20,443 bases of DNA, taken from a virus. Each line of letters opens with the position of its first letter. Within the stretch, counting starts at the first letter, position 1. Both the position numbers and the translations under genes were made by a program. Below are positions 84 through 3,483 of the stretch, in pieces. Below the pieces are notes generated by a model. It was not told the DNA's origin and did no database searches. It worked only from the letters and a program-made list of their open reading frames with translations. The stretch is taken from the IMG/VR virus record IMGVR_UViG_3300044981_000140, positions 1-20,443 of that record. One strand, given 5' to 3'.

Positions 84-455
84 TTAGACCGGTAACCTCT
101 TTTTGGAGTTGGGCGGCGGTGACGGACGCGGGGCCGGTGTCGTCACCGCCGCGACCGGTTCGGGGACCTTGCTTTCCTCACCGGCTGCGACTAATTTATC
201 CCGCTGTGGTGGAGATGTCAAGGTCCACCCAATTATATCCCACGGAGCAACCCGGAACAGCCGCGCAAATTGTTCGAGCCGCTCGGTCGACATCGACACT
301 TCCCCGATCTCGTATTTGTGGACGATCTGCATCGACATCTCGATCGCCTCTGCGACCTCTTCGAGCGTCATGTCGGCTTCTTGGCGCAGGAAGCGCAGTC
401 GGTTGCCGATGCGCTGATCGCGGGTGCGGGTGGCTTCTGTCTTCTTGCGGGGCAT
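84..455 (-). CDS. XRE-family helix-turn-helix repressor-like protein
   Basis: The 123-aa product has a Cro/CI-type helix-turn-helix at about residues 14-72 (IGNRLRFLRQEADMTLEEVA, then IVHKYEIGEVSMSTERLEQF, then LFRVAPWDIIGW). A Pro/Ala-rich tail ends in KKRLPV. The family binds operator DNA as dimers and commonly controls phage early genes or lysogeny; that role is inferred here. The frame is open further upstream, but residues before MPRKKTEATR would lie across the resolvase gene and look non-coding, so the ATG at 455 is chosen. No good Shine-Dalgarno precedes it, and the candidate promoter puts the transcript start at about the ATG, so the mRNA may be leaderless. The gene is divergent from the resolvase gene, 28 bp away. 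Confidence 0.85.
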   Translation of the reverse strand: MPRKKTEATRTRDQRIGNRLRFLRQEADMTLEEVAEAIEMSMQIVHKYEIGEVSMSTERLEQFARLFRVAPWDIIGWTLTSPPQRDKLVAAGEESKVPEPVAAVTTPAPRPSPPPNSKKRLPV

Positions 456-460
456 GCTCA

Positions 461-490
461 AGTAAACCGGGAAAGGGTGTGATGTGTCAA
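461..490 (-). promoter_or_regulatory. Candidate sigma70 promoter of the XRE gene
   Basis: On the minus strand TTGACA (485-490) is followed after 18 bp by TTTACT (461-466). The start codon of the XRE gene lies 5 nt further on, so transcription would begin at or beside the ATG. The -35 box overlaps the first codons of the divergent resolvase gene. The sequence ACCGGGAAA next to the -10 box resembles the shared CATATACGGGAA motif of other promoters in this window. Confidence 0.5.
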
Positions 491-840
491 GTGAAGTAAT
501 TCTGGACCTGCCGGTACCGCCATCGGTCAACCGGTCGCGGCGGGTCAACTGGGGCAAGAACGGGTTCGCAAAGGTGACGGCATGGCACGAGGCATCCGAC
601 CGGCTGCTGCTGGCAGCCCGGTTCAAGCCGCGGAGGATCGACCGGTTTGAACTGCACGTCACGGTGTCGGAGAAGCACACCAGGTCTGACCTCGATAACC
701 CAATAAAATCGCTGATCGACTACCTGCGGCGGATCGAGGCCATTGTGGATGACGGACCGCAGCACCTGCGTAAGCTTGTGGTCGAGTGGGGCGATGCACC
801 GGAAGGTGTGAGAGTTCAGATCGTACCCTTGACAGGATAG
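484..840 (+). CDS. rusA: RusA-family Holliday junction resolvase
   Basis: The 118-aa protein matches the RusA fold: a short N-terminal strand with VPPSVNRSRR, then RSDLDNPIKSLIDYLRRIEA and VDD. In E. coli RusA the catalytic aspartates are D70, D72 and D91; the equivalents here are D69, D71 and D90. The enzyme cuts four-way junctions symmetrically and in phages resolves recombination or replication intermediates. The length is normal for the family. The start is GTG at 484, preceded by GAAAGGG. An ATG two bases earlier runs into a stop after five codons. The gene opens the rightward replication block. Confidence 0.9.
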   Translation: MSSEVILDLPVPPSVNRSRRVNWGKNGFAKVTAWHEASDRLLLAARFKPRRIDRFELHVTVSEKHTRSDLDNPIKSLIDYLRRIEAIVDDGPQHLRKLVVEWGDAPEGVRVQIVPLTG

Positions 841-1317: not shown

Positions 1318-1869
1318 ATGCCCTCCAAAATCCTCGACGACCTTATTGTCGCTGGTGTGCCCAGCGACACGATCTTTGCTGTCAAGCAACTCATCGACGA
1401 TGCCGAAAAACTCGCCATCCGCAGGGAAAAGAACCGGCGGTATCAGCAGGCCAGCCGTGCCCGAAAAGCTGACATGTCAGCACGTGTCAGCACACGTCAG
1501 CACACGTCAGCTGACAGCGTAAAAACCCTGCAAATTCAAAGATCATGTCAGCACACGTCAGCTGACAGCATAGTTTCCCCTATAGAAGTAAGTAAGAAAG
1601 AAAGAAAGAAAGATAGGGCTTGCAGATTGTCAGCTGACTGGAAACCATCGTCAGCCGACCTGGAATACGCCAATCAGCGCATCCGATCACCGGAACTTGT
1701 TCTCGTAGAAGTTGAGAAGTTCAAAAATCACCACATCGGCAAAGGGACGCTCATGGTGGTGTGGTCTCGTGCATTTCAAAATTGGATTTTGAATGCCGTG
1801 AAGTGGAACACCAAACCCAACGGTTTGGTTCCCGGTGTCGTCTGGCATGGAACGGGAGGGATCGTATGA
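1318..1869 (+). CDS. DnaT-like phage replication protein (putative replisome organiser)
   Basis: The 183-aa product has a helical, charged N-terminus (1-50), a repeat-rich low-complexity middle (about 50-102) and a C-terminal domain (about 104-165) with LSADWKPSSADLEYANQR, FKNHHIGKG and WSRAFQNWILNAV. That tail pattern (LP.DW.PS..DL.FA... then W...F..W) is typical of phage replication initiators with a DnaT-like DNA-binding end, which help load the replicative helicase. The middle is built from decamer DNA repeats listed separately as the likely origin; they encode STRQHTSADS twice. The start ATG follows GCGAGGCTCG. The stop overlaps the next ATG (ATGA at 1866), so translation is probably coupled to the primase zinc-ribbon ORF. 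The exact family assignment needs a profile search. Confidence 0.7.
   Translation: MPSKILDDLIVAGVPSDTIFAVKQLIDDAEKLAIRREKNRRYQQASRARKADMSARVSTRQHTSADSVKTLQIQRSCQHTSADSIVSPIEVSKKERKKDRACRLSADWKPSSADLEYANQRIRSPELVLVEVEKFKNHHIGKGTLMVVWSRAFQNWILNAVKWNTKPNGLVPGVVWHGTGGIV
1468..1659. repeat. ori: Iteron array, probable replication origin inside the initiator gene
   Basis: Four tandem decamers of the form ACRYGTCAGC fill 1472-1511. Two more units lie at 1543-1562 (the first reads TCATGTCAGC). An exact 23-bp repeat occurs at 1496-1518 and 1547-1569, 51 bp or 17 codons apart. GTCAGC also forms palindromes: GCTGACATGTCAGC (1468-1481) and GTCAGCTGAC (1506-1515, 1629-1638), with a variant at 1650-1659. 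A/T-richer DNA (1519-1546) and a purine run based on GAAA (1585-1619) lie between and after the clusters. Iterons plus an adjacent purine-rich A/T tract inside the initiator gene is the arrangement of the lambda origin in gene O. Origin function is inferred. Confidence 0.65.
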
Positions 1870-2138
1870 CCGCATCGGAAATCCTTTCCGCCGAACGGAT
1901 TACTTTCCGCGCCCGAGATCGGTACTACACGACTTGCCCTCATTGCTCGCATACGAGAAAAAAGAAACGCAATGCGTGTCTTGCTGTTTCTGTCGATCGT
2001 GATGGCGTTCAGTGGTTCTGCAATCATTGCGAATGGAGTGGAGGAAAGTTCTATGATCAGCAAGATCGCATTGGATTGGCTGGAAAGCAGAAGCATCAGC
2101 GCAGAGATCGCCGTTCGGCACGGGATTTTTACGCCTGA
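1866..2138 (+). CDS. Primase zinc-ribbon domain protein (N-terminal part of a split primase-helicase)
   Basis: The 90-aa product has a zinc ribbon with CPHC (Cys24, Cys27) and CNHC (Cys52, Cys55), the arrangement of T7 gp4 and bacterial primase zinc domains that recognise the priming template. After CEWSGG the frame loses similarity to a primase and ends at 2136. The rest of the enzyme continues in another frame from 2053. GGGAGGG five bases before the ATG is a strong ribosome-binding site, and the ATG overlaps the previous stop (ATGA). Either the zinc domain is a separate subunit, or a +1 frameshift in the 2053-2138 overlap makes a full-length protein, or there is a mutation or sequencing error. 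Confidence 0.7.
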   Translation: MTASEILSAERITFRARDRYYTTCPHCSHTRKKKRNACLAVSVDRDGVQWFCNHCEWSGGKFYDQQDRIGLAGKQKHQRRDRRSARDFYA

Positions 2139-3483
2139 TGCATCACGTCCGCATGTGATCGCGTTCCCGTATTTCGAGAACGGCAATGTTGTCGCGGAAA
2201 AGTACAGAACACCGGACAAGAAATTCTGGCAGAAGCCAGGTGGAAAGAAAACGTTCTGGAATGCCGATGTGCTGAACGATCCGGCGCTTGAACGTGGCGA
2301 TCACCCGTTGGTAATCACTGAAGGCGAGATGGATGCGTTGAGTGCGCTTGAGTGCGGATTTCCGTTTACGATGTCGGTGCCGGACGGTGCGCCGGCACCG
2401 GGCACGCAGAGCGACGTCGATGCCGACAGTTCCGGCAAGTTCGAATTCGTCTGGAATAACCGCGAACGCCTTCAGCGCATCAAGCGCTTCATCCTCGCCG
2501 TTGATGCCGATGCGCCGGGACAGCATCTCGCGAGCGAACTGGTGCGGCGCCTGTTTGCGTCTCGCTGCCTGTTCGTCGAATATCCCGGCAACTGCAAAGA
2601 CCTCAACGATGTGCTGCGTACGCGCGGCAAGGCCGCTGTAGCGGCCGTTCTGAATTGCGCCAAGCCCTACCCGGTGCGCGGCCTCTACCGCCTGGAGGAC
2701 TATCCCGAAGCCGAGCCGCTCCAGACTTTTTCGACAGGGTGGCAAACGCTTGACCAGCACATCAGGCTGTTCCGTGGTGAATTCATGGTTGTGACCGGCA
2801 TTCCATCGCATGGCAAAAGCACGTGGGTGCTCAATCTGCTGGTCAACGCCGCCAACCTGCACGACTGGCGGTCTGCGGTGTTCTCGCCTGAGATGCCGAC
2901 CGTACCACACATGCGTGACAAGCTGCGCCGCATCAAGAACGGTTACCGTGAGTACGGCGGCTCCGGCCCCGATGCCTGGATCAACGATCATTTCGTATTC
3001 ATCGACGCCGATCCGGTATCGCGTGACGATGAAGAGTTCAATCTGGATTGGATCATTGACCGTGCGACTGATGCAGTACTGCGTGATGGCATCAACGTGC
3101 TGGTGATCGATCCATGGAACGAGGTTGAGCACGGTCGCCTGCATGGCGAGAACATGACCGACTACATCGGCCGCTCGATCCGGGCGCTGAAGAGGTTTGC
3201 CAGACTGCGTAACGTGGCGGTGATCGTGGTTGCCCACCCAACCAAAGAGGTAGGGCGAGACGGAAAGACACGAACGCCGACCCTCTACGATATCGAAGGG
3301 TCAGCACATTGGTTCAACAAATGCGACCATGGTGTAATCGTGGAACGTGACCCCGAAATCACCAATCAGACGACGATCTGGATAGCCAAATCCCGCTTTG
3401 AGGAAGCCGGCCTTCGCGGTAGGGTGCTGATGAAATTCAAACCGGTGTCGGATCGCTATGAGACTCTGATACCTTTGGACTAG
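2053..3483 (+). CDS. TOPRIM primase-DnaB-type helicase (T7 gp4/Twinkle-like)
   Basis: The 476-aa protein has a TOPRIM primase domain (ITEGEMDAL, Glu90; FILAVDADAPG, Asp151 and Asp153) and a RecA-type hexameric helicase domain. The helicase has Walker A GIPSHGKS (249-256), a catalytic Glu in FSPEM (280), Walker B INVLVID (Asp353), the H4-like VVAHPTKE (395) and an arginine-finger candidate in KSRFEEAG (Arg448). Such enzymes unwind the fork and prime lagging-strand synthesis. The frame is open upstream to 1972, but GGAGG at 2040-2044, eight bases before the ATG at 2053, marks a strong internal start. The zinc ribbon lies in the preceding overlapping ORF. T7 also makes a short form without the zinc domain, but there the internal start is in frame; here it is not. 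Confidence 0.9.
   Translation: MISKIALDWLESRSISAEIAVRHGIFTPDASRPHVIAFPYFENGNVVAEKYRTPDKKFWQKPGGKKTFWNADVLNDPALERGDHPLVITEGEMDALSALECGFPFTMSVPDGAPAPGTQSDVDADSSGKFEFVWNNRERLQRIKRFILAVDADAPGQHLASELVRRLFASRCLFVEYPGNCKDLNDVLRTRGKAAVAAVLNCAKPYPVRGLYRLEDYPEAEPLQTFSTGWQTLDQHIRLFRGEFMVVTGIPSHGKSTWVLNLLVNAANLHDWRSAVFSPEMPTVPHMRDKLRRIKNGYREYGGSGPDAWINDHFVFIDADPVSRDDEEFNLDWIIDRATDAVLRDGINVLVIDPWNEVEHGRLHGENMTDYIGRSIRALKRFARLRNVAVIVVAHPTKEVGRDGKTRTPTLYDIEGSAHWFNKCDHGVIVERDPEITNQTTIWIAKSRFEEAGLRGRVLMKFKPVSDRYETLIPLD

Follow-up and report, generated by a model that had tools for sequence, protein, structure and literature searches.

A putative phage replication origin within its own initiator gene, with iterons that may be read by an adjoining basic helix

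The window, a 20,443-base IMG/VR fragment, encodes a putative replication initiator, a primase zinc finger and a Toprim-DnaB helicase, in that order. Part of the initiator coding sequence is an array of short direct repeats, which we treat here as candidate iterons. The features are:

1318-1869, plus strand: putative initiator gene, 183 aa, encoding an N-terminal helical hairpin, a basic helix, an iteron-encoded disordered linker and a C-terminal DnaT-like domain
1420-1467, plus strand: codons of the basic region (aa 35-50, RREKNRRYQQASRARK), the proposed iteron reader, on the long helix and directly before the iteron-coded residues
1468-1515, plus strand: iteron block 1, with GTCAGC at 1476, 1486, 1496 and 1506 and inverted GCTGAC at 1468 and 1510
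1543-1566, plus strand: iteron block 2, with GTCAGC at 1547 and 1557 and inverted GCTGAC at 1561
1580-1618, plus strand: purine-rich simple-repeat tract (purine content 85%; one run of 28 bp with period 4), a candidate unwinding element
1629-1659, plus strand: two further GTCAGC sites, at 1629 and 1650, helically in phase and within codons of the DnaT domain
1866-2138, plus strand: primase zinc-finger ORF with a CPHC...CNHC motif, overlapping the next gene in another frame
2053-3483, plus strand: Toprim-DnaB primase-helicase, with a likely start at ATG 2053 (listed ORF 1972-3483)

The C-terminal part of the initiator matches the Pfam DnaT family (PF17948) with an E-value of 3.6e-5 and 23.8 bits, just under the cut-off of 25, and the protein matches phrog_1408 (replication initiation, E 4.7e-7). 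An AlphaFold model predicts a helix at residues 2-11 and then a single long helix spanning 16-71, with high pLDDT as far as residue ~55; beyond it come a disordered linker and the DnaT helices. The model contains no winged helix, and Pfam gave no helix-turn-helix match. In structure comparison a DnaT-ssDNA complex (4ou6_B; DnaT residues 84-153) ranked first, with Z 6.7 over 64 residues (3.1 Å), and sigma-factor rows came close behind (Z 6.4 and 5.8). The C-terminal domain may resemble DnaT in predicted fold as well as in sequence. To our knowledge, DnaT has not been described as an origin-binding protein. A Foldseek search with the whole model found no significant match, a whole-protein sequence search of the PDB gave no useful match, and a direct search of viral contigs found no close relative of the 183-aa protein. 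The pattern ACGTCAGCWSACRYGTCAGC returned two matches, both unrelated; among 289 genomes of a single class a profile search had few matches, confined to the DnaT part; and a GTCAGC triple had a single match in 754 genomes, to an unrelated repeat.

The downstream helicase ORF matches phrog_239 (DNA primase/helicase, E 2.4e-80) and, in Pfam, both DnaB_C and Toprim. The methionine at its likely start, M28 of the listed ORF, is invariant. In 101 of 117 scored cases the zinc-finger and helicase ORFs overlap with an identical offset between their frames, and in 13 they share one frame (mostly fused); the arrangement may reflect either conserved gene overlap or programmed frameshifting.

Block 1 is composed of four tandem ACRYGTCAGC decamers (1472-1481, 1482-1491, 1492-1501 and 1502-1511) and block 2 of two more (1543-1552, TCATGTCAGC, and 1553-1562). 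The palindrome GTCAGCTGAC occurs at 1506, 1557 and 1629, with an imperfect copy at 1650, and a fourth GCTGAC lies at 1633. Together, GTCAGC and GCTGAC occur 12 times in the gene, against 0.4 expected from a Markov model and 1.2 from synonymous recoding of the protein; the recoded genes held at most 7, and none of 20,000 reached the observed count. Outside the gene, nearly 20 kb of sequence contains 14 occurrences. A three-unit iteron match was found twice in the window, against 0.02 expected from window shuffles. A single helical repeat of ~10.25 bp accommodates all eight plus-strand GTCAGC sites (coherence 0.98; p = 0.009 when block offsets were jittered). The role of those at 1629 and 1650 is uncertain; their codons specify LSADW-PSSAD, where the DnaT domain begins, and may be constrained for that reason.

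The array could in principle be a protein-level repeat in a disordered linker, with the DNA repetition as a by-product, and block 2 does repeat the residues QHTSADS. That residue repeat comes from block 2 only, 51 nt away, and the four tandem units of block 1 fall in codon phases 2, 0, 1 and 2. Because all three phases are used and each copy encodes different residues, it is the DNA that is repeated and not the protein. The 10-bp period, the recoding result and the use of several codon phases in relatives likewise contradict a protein-level origin, which we regard as very improbable. The array is under DNA-level constraint within coding sequence, and offers a clear example of a DNA signal selected within the codons of a protein. 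An earlier note on this DNA had described the decamers, palindromes and purine-rich tract within a DnaT-like replication gene and had proposed that the DNA signal is selected above the protein; all of these features were located as described, and the recoding and codon phases bear out the proposal. Its further claim that the repeats force a repeat-rich linker holds for block 2 and fails for block 1, which produces no periodic protein repeat. The strand also folds with a z-score of -4.7, which we discounted as evidence for a structural RNA because it arises from the inverted iteron units; an Rfam search gave no match.

Similar arrays recur in other phages. Three helicase scans yielded 141 loci including the window, with 122 non-redundant upstream regions. 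In about 15 of 17 cases, clusters of a 7-mer present in at least five copies lay inside the initiator gene, indicating that origin-like arrays recur in initiator linkers. The iterons at these loci are mostly unrelated in sequence, and the N-domains differ. Two annotated phages, a Microcystis phage and a Sphingopyxis phage (L367 and L368), have DnaT-like initiators whose linker repeats differ and share a spacing of 17/17/22 bp. Some other initiators have 11-12 bp iterons and no basic region, and a hairpin relative of the window protein (L009) carries 11-bp CCACCGGAAT repeats.

Scanning DNA for GTCAGC at 10-bp spacing identified many initiators of a winged-helix family, whose N-domain is unrelated to that of the window protein. 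Immediately ahead of the array, these initiators and the window protein both have RRxxNRx6R, a motif that in the window protein forms part of the basic region. To avoid selection on the iteron, we recollected the winged-helix family by protein alone. Decamer arrays were present in 36 of 65 linkers and in none of 65 control regions; decamer calls were anchored on GT, and in an unanchored search nearly all strong arrays had GT-led units. Arrays of 10-bp, GT-led iterons recur in the linkers of many unrelated phage initiators.

In the winged-helix family each basic motif has its own iteron: QNR is found with GTMAGC, YFR with GTYCAA or GTCAAA, YLR and YHR with GTCAAC, YMR with GTWAAM, and ADRER with GTCGC. 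Fisher tests of the pairs gave p = 2.7e-6 (NR with AGC), 2.1e-8 (YFR) and 1.0e-6 (YMR), values inflated by shared ancestry because pairs were counted by sequence, and the motifs were chosen after the sequences had been inspected, which weakens the test. Of the 124 protein columns, basic-motif positions 0 and -1 were the most informative about the iteron. In a partial Mantel test, the iteron tracked the basic region when winged-helix similarity was controlled for (r -0.43, p 0.0005); with the roles exchanged, the winged helix gave r -0.12 (p 0.0145). Residues -4, -1, 0 and +3 track iteron positions 5-6, and residues +4 and +10 track position 3. This ordered polarity, with upstream residues following the outer bases and downstream residues the inner ones, suggests a single helix lying in the groove in the orientation of a bZIP protein. 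AlphaFold places the basic region of this family on one long helix as well.

The pairing extends across N-domain families. When DNA was scanned for GTGACG units 10 bp apart (CGTCAC in coding-strand orientation), 45 usable ORFs were obtained. The motif AxRx3[YWHQSLK]R precedes the array in 29 of these 45 and in none of the 21 GTCAGC arrays; conversely, RRxxNRx6R is present in 16 of 21 GTCAGC arrays and in 0 of 45 CGTCAC arrays. The 29 motif-bearing CGTCAC ORFs fall into 14 N-domain sequence groups, two of them doubtful groups of a single ORF. A recognizable basic motif is missing from 5 of 21 GTCAGC and 16 of 45 CGTCAC arrays (several of the 16 are doubtful ORFs). In loci with the hairpin and DnaT layout of the window protein (L405, L424, L425 and L432), the CGTCAC arrays occupy several codon phases, and the basic helix of L425 reads AERTRRWREN; the joint difference in helix and iteron thus extends to proteins of the window type. 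The motifs of this comparison, too, were picked once its sequences had been seen, which lessens its weight. When the 13-mer of the window's basic region was matched to its nearest neighbours in another N-domain family, GTCAGC users ranked first. These comparisons suggest that iteron sequence follows the short basic helix encoded just upstream, across decamer arrays in the linkers of otherwise unrelated initiators, which we consider the new point of this analysis. Across more than 100 other phages, they further suggest that a short, exchangeable helix may decide which iteron word is used.

We also considered an intragenic origin whose iterons are read by the hairpin, the DnaT domain or another phage protein, with the basic helix adding only affinity. 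Three winged-helix loci (L053, L069 and L143) have related winged helices and the same CTGTCCC-type iterons with differing basic regions, and the winged helix retains some iteron signal within its family, predicting the iteron nearly as well as the basic region when close relatives are allowed. Against this, a winged helix is missing from the model of the window protein, and iteron type tracks the basic motif over several unrelated N-domains. We judge such a reader unlikely, at roughly a minor share of the probability, and favor the basic helix.

Array orientation on the coding strand is fixed, in 45 of 45 CGTCAC and 21 of 21 GTCAGC arrays. Together with the location of arrays inside the initiator genes of many relatives, this makes it improbable that the sites are operators or silencers for a regulator, such as the helix-turn-helix repressor encoded at 84-680 (minus strand), and not an origin. 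The palindromic GTCAGCTGAC sites and the nearby repressor-like gene would suit such a regulator; no promoter-like site was found at 900-2200.

The proposed reader resembles the basic regions of bZIP proteins (Maf, BZLF1, GCN4) in having N39 and R47 eight residues apart in a basic helix. The window iteron contains a GTCA half-site, and GTCAGC occurs in Maf elements. Unlike a bZIP protein, the window protein has no leucine zipper (residues 51-85, the iteron-encoded linker, lack heptad leucines), and its sites are direct repeats rather than paired half-sites. A Maf model matched the window protein with E 0.005, below the model cut-off, and six of nine matches in a profile search of the PDB were bZIP proteins, all weak. 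The likeness is statistically weak and suggests a helix that may work like a bZIP basic region rather than one that is a bZIP. A literature search, mostly of papers available without subscription, found the lambda and Stx phage origins and no bZIP-like reader in phage initiators.

In lambda and Stx phages the origin lies in gene O, with iterons and an AT-rich tract in mid-gene, and more iterons give a longer protein (PMC7466680). The window shares this layout, with its array inside the initiator coding sequence and a tract beside the iterons that is purine-rich and a candidate melting element. It departs from lambda in its asymmetric 10-bp direct repeats, which form palindromes only where units are inverted. 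Lambda iterons are inverted repeats of ~19 bp. The window initiator also differs from O in its DnaT-like C-domain and missing winged helix, and the primase-helicase is phage-encoded. Because it has neither 19-bp inverted-repeat iterons nor a winged helix, we do not regard it as a lambda-O member. The earlier note had rightly set the decamer apart from lambda iterons and had seen a separate use of the lambda design; the layout agrees, and the likely reader, a basic helix in place of a winged helix, does not. Its expectation that iterons stay in related phages while the linker drifts is correct for array position and 10-bp spacing and incorrect for iteron sequence, which changes with the basic helix.

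We therefore favor, with a probability of about two in three, a phage origin embedded in its own initiator gene, with decamers read by the basic helix and helix and iteron forming a matched pair. Gene order and the many relatives fit an origin inside the gene, with a lambda-like layout; the window is a fragment, so the origin may lie in another part of the phage genome. Initiator binding, melting and origin activity are deduced from sequence. Initiators would sit side by side on the GTCAGC decamers, one per helical turn, each making contact through the basic helix projecting from the short N-terminal hairpin. The adjacent purine-rich tract would melt, and the DnaT-like C-domain, on its iteron-encoded disordered linker, would handle single-stranded DNA and recruit the phage helicase encoded just downstream. 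Basic helix and iteron sequence appear to change in concert.

We lean, by a narrower measure, towards a general form of this arrangement, in which many phage initiators use an exchangeable bZIP-like helix to read decamers in the codons directly behind it, as one cassette with a simple residue-to-base code. Proposed reader and target adjoin in the gene: the codons for the helix immediately precede the sites, at a distance of a few dozen bases. Such a code, if true, predicts that changing a few helix residues changes the iteron. The pairing, if true, would account for the puzzling abundance of VT, SQ and RH in the linkers of phage replication proteins, allow origins to be located by sequence alone in many uncultured phages, and represent a compact, predictable DNA-recognition module in bacterial viruses, comparable to the bZIP basic region.

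Other repeats were observed during these scans. Among loci L198-L277, some linkers have period-6 repeats after the basic region (GAAGCA, AGATAC, GAAGTA and similar), encoding AEAE, TDTD or EVEV. Period-6 runs of at least 21 bp occur in the linkers of 26 of 58 comparison-family genes versus 0 of 58 sets of control codons, and are candidate unwinding elements. A large replication protein (L028:7853-10933, minus strand) contains a VSADVSADVSAD segment derived from GTCAGC-type repeats in one frame. Three loci (L173, L185 and L188) carry three tandem GTCAGCAACT copies in a gene resembling a small terminase subunit, a possible packaging site.
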